Positions 20,990-26,025 of a stretch of 64,000 bases of DNA are shown in pieces. Both the position numbers and the translations under genes were made by a program. Source of the DNA: Fidelibacterota bacterium (GTDB taxonomy: Bacteria; Fidelibacterota; UBA8477; JABMPR01); NCBI GenBank assembly GCA_016844945.1, contig JAERTJ010000212.1, positions 1-64,000 on the forward strand, read 5' to 3'. Each line of letters begins with the position of its first letter. The first letter of the stretch is position 1. Below the pieces are notes generated by a model that saw only the letters and a list, made by a program, of their open reading frames with translations, was not told the DNA's origin and made no database searches.

Positions 20990-22921
20990 TCAGGATTCTG
21001 ACATGGGCTCAACCCAATAGCCCTCAGATTTGATTAACTCAATGAGGGAATCCACAGCTTCTACCTGGGGGACATGCGGTCTTACCACCATTTGTCCACG
21101 ATACAGCGAAACCTTGCCAGGACCTGTTCCAACATATCCAAAGTCAGCATCAGCCATTTCGCCAGGACCATTTACGATACAACCCATAATCCCAATCTTT
21201 ACGCCTTTTAAATGGCTCGTACGTTCTCTGATTTGAGCGGTCACTTCCTCGAGATGAAAAAGTGTTCTACCGCAGGAAGGGCAAGCAATGTATTCAGTAC
21301 GCGTCATGCGGCTTCTGCTGGCTTGCAGAATACCAAAGGCAATATCATTTAGGTCGTTCCCTGTGATGTGTTGAGACCGCAACCAGATGCCATCTGCAAG
21401 ACCATCATTAAAAATGCCACCCATTTCAGCAGCGGCTGATAGCAGATATTCATCGCGCTGAGTATGGGGGATAGATGATTGAATGATTACTGGCTGAGAT
21501 CGCTGGTGATTCATTAATTCAGCAATAAATCTTCGAATCCCCGCCATTTGATGCGAGTTGTCCGAGTGAATGATCCATATAATAGTTGGGTCATCTGGCA
21601 AAGTGGTGATATCTACATCACTTGAAACATACACATAATTCGTAGTTGGATGGTGGGTTTCAGAGTTTATAAAGACATCCAATTCATAGACTGGAAAACA
21701 TTCTGAAGGATGATTCAACATCTCCCATTTGTCTGAATCATAGAGAGTTACGATATCCGGTGAAAGTTGAAAATCCTTAGCCTTTCTTCCAAAGTATAGG
21801 ATATCTGCTCCCATATCACCTGGTTGCCAGGTCCGACTGATTAAGTCATACTGTAACCCTGCAGACTTCAAGTTAACTTCATTGATTGACTCAACATGAG
21901 AGAAATCAGCTACCACGATAGGAACTTGATCGCCCCCGGTATTTGCATTGGGTATAGATACCCTCCGTCTGTATTCAAAGGGATTGTAAGGCAACTCGGC
22001 CAAATCAGCTATCTCAGGGTGGTTGGAAAGGGAATTGATGGATTTTACAATTGATTGGGCAACCGGAATCTCTGCTTCAGGGCTCTCAGTTAATGATACC
22101 CGGATAGTATCGCCAAATCCATCCCGCAACAATGATCCGATTCCTAGGGATGATTTAATCCTGGCATCATCACCATCGCCAGCTTCAGTGACACCTAGAT
22201 GTAGGGGATAATTGAATCCCTCGATCTCCATTTGTTGCACGAGTAAGCGATACGCTTGAATCATTATCCGTGTGTTACTGGCTTTCATGGAGAGAACAAT
22301 CTCATGATAATCATGATCTGCGCATATTCTCAAGAACTCCATGGCTGATTCAACCATACCTTGTGGCGTATCCCCATAGTGGCTTAGAATTCTATCAGAT
22401 AGGGAGCCATGGTTTGACCCGATCCTCATGGCAGTACCTTCTTCACGGCATAATTTCACAAGGGGTGAAAAGCGCTCCCGAATTCTCTCAAGCTCTCCCT
22501 GGTACTCATCCTGGCTGTACTCTAGTTGCTGGAAGTTTTTACGATCAACATAATTTCCAGGGTTGACACGAACTTTCTCTACCAATTTTGCGGCTTCTTC
22601 AGCAGCACGCGGGACAAAATGAATGTCAGCAATCAAGGGAACTGAGTAACCGCGTTTCCTCAATTCGGATTTGATGACACCCAGGTTGCGCGCCTCTTTA
22701 ACGCTGGGGGCAGTAATACGGACATATTCGCACCCGGCATTCACAAGACGAATGGTTTGGTCCACAGTAGCCTGAGTATCCATAGTATCCGTGTTAGTCA
22801 TGGATTGGATTCGGATGGGATGATCTCCACCCAGGGGTACATCGCCGATATTTACGACCCGAGTTTTGTAACGTTGGTATCGGGTGAGGTGCTGGAGTTG
22901 ATCAAAATATGGGGTGTTCAT
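20990..22921 (-). CDS. ispG: 4-hydroxy-3-methylbut-2-en-1-yl diphosphate synthase, long form
   Basis: A 643-residue IspG/GcpE enzyme, the penultimate MEP-pathway step making HMBPP with a [4Fe-4S] cluster. The TIM barrel starts RIQSMTNTDTMDTQATV and has RVNPGNY. The C-terminal cluster domain has CPSCGRTLF and MGCIVNGPGEMADADFGYVG, giving three Cys plus the Glu ligand. The length (E. coli 372) reflects the central insertion domain found in Bacteroidota, Chlamydiae and plants, here roughly residues 270-530. The electron donor is not in this window. The gene faces pepP across a 196-bp divergent intergenic region. Confidence 0.96.
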   Translation of the reverse strand: MNTPYFDQLQHLTRYQRYKTRVVNIGDVPLGGDHPIRIQSMTNTDTMDTQATVDQTIRLVNAGCEYVRITAPSVKEARNLGVIKSELRKRGYSVPLIADIHFVPRAAEEAAKLVEKVRVNPGNYVDRKNFQQLEYSQDEYQGELERIRERFSPLVKLCREEGTAMRIGSNHGSLSDRILSHYGDTPQGMVESAMEFLRICADHDYHEIVLSMKASNTRIMIQAYRLLVQQMEIEGFNYPLHLGVTEAGDGDDARIKSSLGIGSLLRDGFGDTIRVSLTESPEAEIPVAQSIVKSINSLSNHPEIADLAELPYNPFEYRRRVSIPNANTGGDQVPIVVADFSHVESINEVNLKSAGLQYDLISRTWQPGDMGADILYFGRKAKDFQLSPDIVTLYDSDKWEMLNHPSECFPVYELDVFINSETHHPTTNYVYVSSDVDITTLPDDPTIIWIIHSDNSHQMAGIRRFIAELMNHQRSQPVIIQSSIPHTQRDEYLLSAAAEMGGIFNDGLADGIWLRSQHITGNDLNDIAFGILQASRSRMTRTEYIACPSCGRTLFHLEEVTAQIRERTSHLKGVKIGIMGCIVNGPGEMADADFGYVGTGPGKVSLYRGQMVVRPHVPQVEAVDSLIELIKSEGYWVEPMSES

Positions 22922-23117
22922 TTATGGAATTATTCCTTGTAATCATTATATAAATCACTTCAATCTAAAGAGTCTCGCTGTCGAAACCAATTGGAATACA
23001 AGTGTTTCGTGACTTCATCCTGACTTCTGTCCGGGTTCAATTTGAAAGAAGTTGTACCTTGTAGTCAGCAATAGATGCTTTTATTTTGCCCGTCTTATAA
23101 TAGGAGCTATTTACATT

Positions 23118-24425
23118 ATGTTTGATAAAAACGTTTACAGTGTACGTCGCAATAAATTGATCAAAGCTCTGGGTAGAGGAGTAGCCATACTCAAGGGGGC
23201 TCCTGAGCAAATTCGGACCAATGATACGGAGTACCCCTATCGCCAGGATTCAGACTTTTTCTACCTGACAGGCTACAACGAACCTGGTGCGGCTTGTATC
23301 ATTAATCCCAACGATAAAGACAATCCATTTACACTGTTTGTATTACCACAGGATCCAAAAAAGGAAGTCTGGACGGGTTGGCGATTAAGTTTTGAAGAGA
23401 CGGTAAACACCTTTGGAGCAGATCAGGCACTGGATATAGCTGAGTTTGGGAAAAAGACACTGGAAGCAATGAAAACTGCTTCCAAAGTATTTACCAATCT
23501 GAACCATGACAAAGAGCATCAACACAACATGCTGGATATGGTAGGTCAGGTGCGTAAAGAGGTCCAGCGTACAGGTGGCGGACCTGAAGGTTTGGAGTCC
23601 ATCGGCTCAATTGTGCATGGCATGCGACTTCTCAAGGATGATCACGAGTTGAAACTGATGCAAAAGGCTTCTGATATCTCTGCAGAAGCACATTCTCTGG
23701 CAATGAAAGCATGCTCGCCGGGTATGTATGAGTATCAACTCCAGGCTGTCCTGGAAAGTCATTTTGTCCATGAGGGCGGTGCAGGACCTGCATATACTTC
23801 AATTGTTGGAGCAGGGGACAATGCAACGGTTCTTCATTATATTAAAAATCGTGACCAGATCAAAGATGGTGATATGATCCTTATTGATGCAGCAGCTGAG
23901 TATGAAATGTATGCTTCGGATATAACCCGGTCTTTTCCAGCAAATGGTAAATTCTCAGATGCCCAGAAAGCAATATACTCAGTGGTCCTCAAGGCACAGA
24001 AGGCTGTCATTGAAGCTTCCAAACCAGGAGTGACATTCCAGGAACTCCACGATCTTGACCTACGTCTATTGGTTGAGGGGATGATTGATATTGGCTTGCT
24101 TTCAGGAGATGTAGATGAGGTGATTCAAAACGAAAGCTATCAACCCTACTTTATGCATAAGACTGGTCACTGGCTTGGACTTGATGTCCATGACATGGGC
24201 AATTATATGGTCGAAGGAAAATCTATTGTTTTAGAACCGGGTATGGTTTTTACTATTGAACCTGGTATTTATGTGAATTCCAAATCTGATGCCCCAGAAA
24301 AGTTTCGAGGCATTGGGATTAGGATAGAAGATGATATCTTGATTACCAAATCCGGGAACAAAAATTTGACAGAGGCTGTTCCAAAAGAGATATCTGAAAT
24401 TGAAGCCCTCATGGCATCTGAATAA
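23118..24425 (+). CDS. pepP: Xaa-Pro aminopeptidase (aminopeptidase P)
   Basis: A 435-residue M24B metallopeptidase that removes an N-terminal residue before proline. An aminopeptidase-P N-domain (RQDSDFFYLTGYNEPGA) precedes the pita-bread catalytic domain. Metal ligands are visible: Asp257, Asp268 (YASDITRSF), His351 (TGHWLGLDVHD), Glu381 (FTIEPGIYV) and Glu404 (IRIEDDI). I use ATG 23118, which has AGGAG at 23102-23106; the frame extends upstream to 23052 without ribosome site. No signal peptide, so cytoplasmic. The selenoprotein candidate starts 12 bp after its stop and may be co-transcribed. Confidence 0.94.
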   Translation: MFDKNVYSVRRNKLIKALGRGVAILKGAPEQIRTNDTEYPYRQDSDFFYLTGYNEPGAACIINPNDKDNPFTLFVLPQDPKKEVWTGWRLSFEETVNTFGADQALDIAEFGKKTLEAMKTASKVFTNLNHDKEHQHNMLDMVGQVRKEVQRTGGGPEGLESIGSIVHGMRLLKDDHELKLMQKASDISAEAHSLAMKACSPGMYEYQLQAVLESHFVHEGGAGPAYTSIVGAGDNATVLHYIKNRDQIKDGDMILIDAAAEYEMYASDITRSFPANGKFSDAQKAIYSVVLKAQKAVIEASKPGVTFQELHDLDLRLLVEGMIDIGLLSGDVDEVIQNESYQPYFMHKTGHWLGLDVHDMGNYMVEGKSIVLEPGMVFTIEPGIYVNSKSDAPEKFRGIGIRIEDDILITKSGNKNLTEAVPKEISEIEALMASE

Positions 24426-24437
24426 ACAGGATAAATA

Positions 24438-25574
24438 ATGAAATTAATTGCAAAGAAAATCGGACTCTTACTCTTCCTAGTTGTGATGACCACAATTGGC
24501 TGCCGAAGTGAAGTGACCTCGGAATACAACCCCAATGAATTTACGCTAATGGTCGCTGCCAGTAATCATGGAGAAGTCGGACCGTGTGGCTGAAAGTCTA
24601 ATCCACTTGGCGGTCTTGCCAGGAAGCATACAATTATAAAAGGATTAGAAGAATCACAAGCCACATACCTTGTAGATGCTGGGGATGCTTTTTTTAAGAG
24701 CACCTTTGTTGCAGATTCAAAACGTGACCACTTGCTCCAGGTTGCTCGGGCAATTGTAAACTCATATAATGTTATGGGATGCCAGGTCATGAATATTGGT
24801 GGAAATGACCTTGCTGCAGGTATGGAATTTATAAAGGAATTGGAGTCACAGGCTAATTTTCCATTTATTTCATCCAATATCACCGCCCTTGATTCTGAAG
24901 CTCTCTTGTTCCCAAAACATGCGATCGTTGAAACTCATGACCGGACGTTGGGCTTTGTAGGTGTCTCATCAGGAGATAGACGGTTAAAGGAATTTACCTT
25001 TCAAGATCCTATTGCGGCAGCTCAGAAAAGCATAGACGAAATCAAGGATAGGGTAGACCTGATATTTCTATTGGCGAATGTTGATGACAAAACAGAACTT
25101 AAATTGACAAAGGAAGTTGATGGGTTTGACTTTTTACTCCGATCAAAGACAGCCTCTCTGCAACGAAATCCTAAAGAAAAGGATGGCAAAGTTATCATCC
25201 GAATAGGGAAGCAAGGTAAATATGCCGGTGTTCTAAGGATCAGAAGCGTTGACGACATAAGCCCTATGAAAAATGTGAGCTCTCAATATACACGCATAAA
25301 ATTTGCCGAAAACCGTCTGAGCGCCATGAAAAAAGGACTCGACGAGGGCAAAACACTTGAAGAACACTATGCTGATGATGAGAAACGACTCAAGTTGATT
25401 GAACGTCTGAGAAATGAACATACAACTAATGTTGAACTCATAAAAAAACTTCACAACTCATACTATTTAGAAGCTATCCCACTAAATGAAAAGATTGAGG
25501 ATACACCTGAAGTTGCCGCAATTGTAAAAGACTATATGCCAGTGGATAAAAAGAAGGCTGAAAAACACAAGTAA
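24438..25574 (+). CDS. Probable selenocysteine lipoprotein related to UshA-type metallophosphatases (TGA 24591 = Sec52)
   Basis: A 378-codon frame broken only by TGA at 24591-24593. AGGA precedes ATG 24438. Residues 1-22 are a lipoprotein signal (LFLVVMTTIGC). Then come NHGEVGPCG-U-KSNPLGGLARKHT, VDAGD, and NIGGNDLAAGMEF...FPFISSNIT. This order mirrors UshA/5'-nucleotidase-like phosphatases, where a PCGC motif can follow the first metal motif and GNHEFD precedes the ...FPxLSANI segment. The TGA falls where that second Cys is expected, giving Cys50-Gly51-Sec52, and a SECIS-like hairpin follows. The metal motif reads GNDL (122-125) instead of GNHE, so a redox role is more likely than phosphatase; that is inference. 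Without Sec insertion only 51 residues would be made. selA, selB, selC and selD are not in the window. Confidence 0.85.
24594..24623 (+). promoter_or_regulatory. Bacterial SECIS-like element
   Basis: Directly after the TGA the RNA can form CTTGGC (24606-24611) paired with GCCAGG (24618-24623; one G-U pair), with apical loop GGTCTT (24612-24617). The loop begins exactly 18 nt after the UGA. In E. coli fdhF the GGUCU loop also begins 18 nt after UGA and is the SelB contact site. The distance and loop fall within the known bacterial SECIS limits. Confidence 0.8.
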
Positions 25575-25593
25575 ACAAAAGAAATATTAGATG

Positions 25594-25631
25594 AAAAAAA
25601 AAGAGGCTGATAATTTCAGCCTCTTTTTTTT
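25594..25631. terminator. Bidirectional terminator
   Basis: GAGGCTGA (25603-25610), loop TAATT, TCAGCCTC (25616-25623), flanked by nine A on the left and a T run on the right. It can end both the pepP-selenoprotein transcript and the minus-strand tRNA transcript. Confidence 0.93.
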
Positions 25632-25632
25632 G

Positions 25633-25705
25633 AGCGAGAGACCGGACTCGAACCGGCGACAACCACGTTGGCAACGTGGAGCTCTACCAACTGAGCTACT
25701 CTCGC
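25633..25705 (-). tRNA. tRNA-Gly (GCC)
   Basis: 73-nt cloverleaf on the minus strand. The acceptor is GCGAGAG/CTCTCGC, the T arm includes GGTTCGAGTCC, and the anticodon stem CCACG/CGTGG holds loop TTGCCAA with anticodon GCC (25670-25672). The discriminator is U, as expected for bacterial glycine tRNA. CCA is not encoded. Confidence 0.96.
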
Positions 25706-26025
25706 ATGAGCTGTCTGCTATCAATGATAGCTTAAAAGCGGCGTGAATATAAATCGCCTCAAGGGCGGGGCAAACATTTTTTGCCCCTATCTTCAGGTTT
25801 GTTTGATTCCAGCCAGAACACAACAATCTGTAGCGGCTACAACATATCATTTCTATATAATACTATATCAAAATATTGTGTAATTCAGAATTATACTAAT
25901 GTGATGACACTTATATAAAAGCAATATAAACAATAAGAAAGATAATGTATCATTACATTGGCATATACATTGTGAAAGAGTATGGCATGATGATTAAAAA
26001 TCAAATTGCCAAGAAGGAGACAATC
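25706..26025. other. Intergenic region upstream of tRNA-Gly and the TonB-like gene
   Basis: 320 bp without a convincing gene. A 15-bp palindrome GCTATCA-A-TGATAGC (25717-25731) lies 12 bp upstream of the tRNA on its promoter side. From 25845 the sequence is very AT-rich, with TATAAT at 25856-25861 but no good -35 box. I see no RNA gene. Confidence 0.5.

Follow-up and report, generated by a model that had tools for sequence, protein, structure and literature searches.

The gene that begins at position 24438 of the window (the whole 64,000-nucleotide stretch of DNA analysed) is, judged by comparison with its relatives, nearly certainly a real selenoprotein gene, and its in-frame TGA at 24591-24593 is very probably read as selenocysteine (Sec; probability roughly 0.93). 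According to the proposed mechanism, this codon would be translated as Sec by the bacterium's own SelA/SelB/SelC/SelD system, its decoding would be directed by a hairpin starting 12 nt after the codon, and the product would be a short UshA-like protein with a Cys50-Gly51-Sec52 pair.

The reading frame opens with ATG and contains no in-frame stop before its TAA other than the TGA, which is codon 52 and stands in the context PCG-U-KSNPLGGLARK (Table 1). The coordinates, the frame, the single TGA and the Cys50-Gly51-X52 arrangement given in the original prediction were all confirmed. Annotation without selenoprotein handling would truncate the gene at codon 51. The window belongs to a 4.73-Mb bin of 234 contigs (90.7% complete, 6% estimated contamination). 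The nearest named relatives of the protein, L055 and L056, are 61% and 60% identical to it, come from bins named Candidatus Neomarinimicrobiota, and also have TGA at the matching codon. Identity to these relatives is 53–55% before the TGA and 62–63% after it; the differences by codon position are of the coding type on both sides, with values of 0.28–0.29, 0.19–0.20 and 0.58 after the TGA. Accordingly, the frame 3' of the TGA is coding, and the TGA is flanked on both sides by conserved coding sequence, as in bacterial selenoprotein genes.

Table 1. Positions in the window of the putative selenoprotein gene, its elements and its immediate surroundings
Feature	Position	Strand	Details
Aminopeptidase P (M24) gene, upstream neighbour	23052..24425	+	Context only
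Gap to the upstream aminopeptidase P gene	24426..24437	+	12 bases; AGGA ribosome-site-like sequence, by eye
Short-form UshA-like selenoprotein gene, predicted lipoprotein	24438..25574	+	378 codons; TGA, read as Sec, at codon 52; TAA stop
Predicted signal peptide with lipobox-like TIGC (Cys22)	24438..24503	+	Cys also in the two nearest named relatives
Cys50-Gly51-Sec52 motif	24585..24593	+	TGT GGC TGA
Bacterial SECIS-like hairpin	24606..24623	+	6-bp stem CTTGGC/GCCAGG (24606-24611/24618-24623); loop GGTCTT (24612-24617) beginning 18 nt after the TGA
Terminator-like end	25594..25631	.	A-tract, inverted repeat GAGGCTGA/TCAGCCTC, T-tract, by eye

The original prediction had named selA, selB, selC and selD as the genes to look for, and all four were found in the window's genome: the gene of tRNA-Sec (selC; 72.8 bits, identified by ARAGORN as SeC with anticodon TCA), selB (342 bits), selA (513 bits) and selD (368 bits). 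Contig C86 carries selB, selA and selD together. The gene selD contains an in-frame TGA of its own, in KAAG-U-AGK; by the same reasoning, it would itself be a selenoprotein gene and an internal control for UGA decoding.

Homologues were sought by HMM search in 60 genomes of the phylum, and one short-form homologue was read from each of 51; no short-form locus was read in 9 of the 60. The codon at the Sec column is TGA in 41 of the 51 homologues and Cys (TGC or TGT) in 10, each from a different genome. Both the presence of Cys in related proteins at this place and the alternation of UGA and Cys, which the original prediction had proposed to count, are borne out by these numbers. Since the same codon is TGA in 41 homologues from different genomes, a read error at 24591, which would have undone that prediction, is not the case. 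Left out of the count were L055 and L056 (the same matches as L044 and L040), L057 (from another phylum), the Cys paralogues L078, L079, L082 and L083, which are more distant, and L080 (a second copy in G041, with Met at the aligned column).

The residue at this codon follows the Sec machinery of the genome. Matches above cut-off to both selA and selC were found in 35 of the TGA genomes, to selA only in 4 and to selC only in 2. Neither gene was found in 9 of the 10 Cys genomes, while both are present in one, G042. The association of TGA or Cys with selA and selC has a Fisher p of 3e-9, computed ignoring relatedness and with a selA match below cut-off in G015, a contig-end fragment, scored as absent. 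A selB match over the cut-off is present in all TGA genomes except G014 (40 of 41) and, among the 10 Cys genomes, in G042 alone. Cys homologues are therefore tied to absent Sec machinery, as for other bacterial selenoproteins, with the exception of G042, which has Cys at the codon despite selA, selB and selC. By family label, 11 families contain TGA genes only, three Cys genes only (f5, f6 and f7), and one, f3, both. In the genomes G030 (98% complete; L063) and G054 (96% complete; L059), which have the TGA gene, selA and selB, no tRNA-Sec was detected, also not with a relaxed cut-off; its gene may have diverged or may be lacking in the assembly.

These distributions, namely the retention of TGA in 41 genomes and the presence of Cys at the codon in 9 genomes without selA and selC, also bear on the reading of the TGA as a true stop, by which the locus would be a pseudogene or would encode a 51-residue lipopeptide, with the downstream frame restarting at an internal start. 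A downstream start is present at 24732, but several invariant columns lie in frame between the TGA and this position, and we consider a true stop extremely improbable.

Some individual homologues stand out. In L080, the second copy of G041, both motif residues are lost, and the sister copy L035 retains TGA. The Cys homologue L070 (G025) contains SCPTC, whose two Cys are spaced as C-x-x-C, resembling CxxU in UshA-like family 2, and retains most of the hairpin. In the window's genome itself, contig C227 encodes L078 (2336-3232, minus strand), an UshA-like paralogue of 298 aa that has NCQC where the window protein has PCGU, as well as a GGHSQH motif, and is adjoined by a TlpA-like thioredoxin named by eye; this paralogue reads as a Cys-only cousin within the same cell.

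The SECIS-like hairpin of the original prediction exists and is kept across the TGA genes; the energy of the window hairpin, taken alone, is ordinary (−8.9 kcal/mol, z −0.97; 34 of 200 shuffled sequences are at least as stable), and it is by comparison across relatives only that the predicted hairpin is convincing. The GG-L-A-R segment that forms the hairpin is encoded in the TGA genes by GGC (41/41), GGT (39/41), GCC (36/36 cases with Ala) and AGG (34/41), compared with usages of 17%, 42%, 26% and 9% for these codons in the window ORFs. With one gene taken per family, the counts are 12/12, 11/12, 10/10 Ala cases and 7/12, respectively. In the 10 Cys genes the pattern is much weaker (GGC 5, GGT 4, GCC 2 of 5 Ala cases, AGG 2). 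When the codons are resampled synonymously, the observed stem length exceeds the expectation at p < 0.05 for 25 of the 41 TGA genes and for none of the Cys genes (0 of 10); p is 0.05 or higher in 16 TGA genes and 0.0475 for the window gene. A hairpin at a suitable distance and with a G-containing apical loop, as in bacterial selenoprotein genes, is thus kept beyond protein constraint across the relatives, the signal being weak in the window alone.

Pro or Ser takes the place of Ala in L027, L035, L064 and L067, and there the folded stem shifts its pairing by one base and retains the GGUCU loop; in L073, where Ala is also replaced, the slipped stem with the GGUCU loop is only partly kept. The SECIS element of Escherichia coli fdhF has a GGUCU loop as well. 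Two Cys genes, L028 (G042, machinery present) and L070 (G025, machinery absent), have five of the six stem pairs and the GGUCUU loop, and their hairpins could be remnants of a Sec ancestor. In an Rfam search of 24400-25800, only tRNA-Gly reached the gathering score of its family, and no match covered the hairpin.

Insertion of Trp, Gly or Cys at the TGA, via a general change of the code or leaky decoding, is very improbable. Relatives do substitute Cys, so a leaky reading as Cys would still yield a useful protein. On the other hand, of 39 hand-picked long ORFs of the window, one of which is the 3' part of the selenoprotein gene, 16 end with TGA, 13 with TAA and 10 with TAG; TGA, the commonest stop, is therefore not reassigned genome-wide. 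The tRNA-Sec with anticodon TCA and the restriction of stems beyond synonymous expectation to TGA genes also argue against insertion of another residue and are consistent with Sec.

The lipoprotein signal of the original prediction holds for the window protein, which has the lipobox-like TIGC, and does not extend to all homologues. Among close relatives the lipobox differs (AVGC, LLGC, ILGC, VIAC and others); L026, L032 and L038, homologues from another family, have a signal peptide and no lipobox Cys, so lipoprotein status is not general. The terminator-like element is situated between the selenoprotein gene and a convergent tRNA-Gly on the opposite strand and was absent from the output of the pattern scan; the promoter pattern scan found 11 patterns against 7.2 expected (sd 2.9). 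Aminopeptidase P is encoded upstream in L055 and L092 too, and about 1 kb upstream in L097, all three belonging to the same order. Elsewhere in the window, at 20990-22921 of the minus strand, a GcpE (IspG) homologue was found that matches the Pfam model in two stretches and, with 643 aa, is longer than its 343 positions.

Within NCBIfam, the window protein scores best against NF041198, UshA-like (seleno)protein (UshA_like_PCGU). The PCG-U/C motif of this family is shared by the window protein, but the score of 213.2 bits is below the curated cut-off of 275, and the alignment covers profile positions 2–375, the C-terminal part (about 376–519) being absent from the protein (378 aa against 519 profile positions). 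Because of the score and the absent part, the protein is classed, by its sequence, as a short-form variant of an already known kind of selenoprotein. All 20 aligned members match NF041198 with E 0.001 or better, and a match over the cut-off was found in 1 of the 60 genomes searched. Profile positions 401–512 are matched elsewhere in the window's genome by another frame, of 193 aa and with four CXXCH haem motifs; the long form therefore probably includes a cytochrome c part, which is lacking in the short form. The second family, NF049981, has a likeness in the UshA-like domain (1.3e-12 over residues 36–275), but the window protein reaches only 47.7 bits against a cut-off of 140, and the motif of this family is CxxU according to the part covered of a 2026 review (PMC13188914), while that of the window protein is CxU.

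The protein is similar to SoxB (1.7e-14), UshA (2.6e-10) and solved 5'-nucleotidases (4.7e-7). A selenium-assisted metallo-hydrolase like UshA, CD73 and SoxB, in which Sec would bind the metal or act as nucleophile close to the former active site, might be supposed from these similarities of the N-terminal domain and from the position of C-G-U just before the GG-AR segment, which in the alignment corresponds to the N-terminal part of the nucleotidase domain. We consider such an enzyme unlikely. Eleven columns are invariant among the 20 members (C50, U/C52, G58, G59, R62, G82, D124, S145, F158, G175 and G260), and none of them is His; several members have Asn in place of the final Asp of the DAGD segment, and Pfam Metallophos matches 1 of the 20, weakly. 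The Asp/His/Asn metal ligands of UshA and 5'-nucleotidases, judged at the level of sequence, are not conserved in the short form, and the lack of an invariant histidine argues that there is no UshA-type metal site. Moreover, the similarity to nucleotidases stops near residue 275 of the 378, before the C-terminal half, which in UshA is nucleotide-binding and seems absent here. The AlphaFold2 prediction has a mean pLDDT of 54.5, a low confidence, and the assignment of the fold therefore follows sequence similarity. The protein looks like a metallo-hydrolase fold without its metals, the Cys-Gly-Sec pair being among its few invariant features. It would be a lipoprotein of the periplasmic side that has kept the N-terminal fold of 5'-nucleotidases and not their metal site.

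The statement of the original prediction that no selenoprotein had been described in the UshA-like family proved wrong. A UshA-like (COG0737) selenoprotein family with a CxU motif was tabulated by Zhang and Gladyshev in 2008 (PMC2398784); the values 76, 20 and 92 in its row are taken as Sec sequences, samples and Cys homologues. In the parts of this paper covered, no host phylum is given for the family, and conserved Cys-based redox motifs are ascribed to the twenty major families with the exception of SelD, FdhA and UshA-like. These selenoproteins are UshA-like, have CxU and are marine, as here, a likeness at the level of description. UshA-like selenoproteins also appear as COG0737 in a 2022 review (PMC9312934) and as NF041198, with family 2 as NF049981, in the 2026 review, both covered in part. 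Among the matches listed in literature searches on UshA-like/COG0737 selenoproteins and on selenocysteine in Marinimicrobia, the short form or its function was not found.

Genes of a rhodanese and a MauE/DoxX membrane protein adjoin the selenoprotein gene or lie within about 0.5 kb of it in 6 of 19 Sec regions (L093, L095, where the two are fused, L100, L102, L103 and L105; families f10, f11, f14 and f15) and in none of 6 Cys regions. Their names come from Pfam for L093 and L095, and for the remaining regions from tblastn matches to L093 and L105. The stretches read range from about 6 to 12 kb, apart from the window, which was read whole, and within them the pair is absent from 13 of the 19 Sec regions. 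The MauE proteins examined carry Cys-Gly-Cys. In the window's genome, the pair is unlinked to the selenoprotein gene and is located on contig C86, which also holds selA, selB and selD; there, in L113, overlapping rhodanese-like and MauE genes occupy 903-1451 and 1441-1926, the second with a CGC motif. An FMN_dh neighbour, which we take to be probably a type-2 IPP isomerase, occurs in 5 of the 19 Sec regions and in 1 of the 6 Cys regions; as a functional partner it was set aside as probably unrelated.

The Cys-x-Sec pair would serve as a redox or sulfur-handling centre, a role to which we give slightly less than even odds. In part of the phylum, its likely partners would be the rhodanese and the MauE/DoxX membrane protein carrying Cys-Gly-Cys, and this neighbourhood is no more than suggestive of a thiol or sulfur relay in the periplasm. 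In the fullest form of this proposal, a metal-less 5'-nucleotidase fold would have turned, in Neomarinimicrobiota, into a periplasmic selenocysteine protein of redox or sulfur transfer, with Cys-Gly-Sec exchanging electrons or sulfane sulfur with the rhodanese and the Cys-Gly-Cys MauE/DoxX; this we regard as doubtful, if conceivable. No literature joining selenoprotein, rhodanese and MauE was found, and a thiol relay of Cys-Gly-Sec, rhodanese and MauE, if true, has not yet been described. Rhodanese and MauE are candidate partners for a family for which no tested function was found in the literature. A selenoprotein family known since 2008 has a short form across the uncultured marine phylum Neomarinimicrobiota, in which Cys substitutes for Sec in the 9 genomes read without selA and selC.
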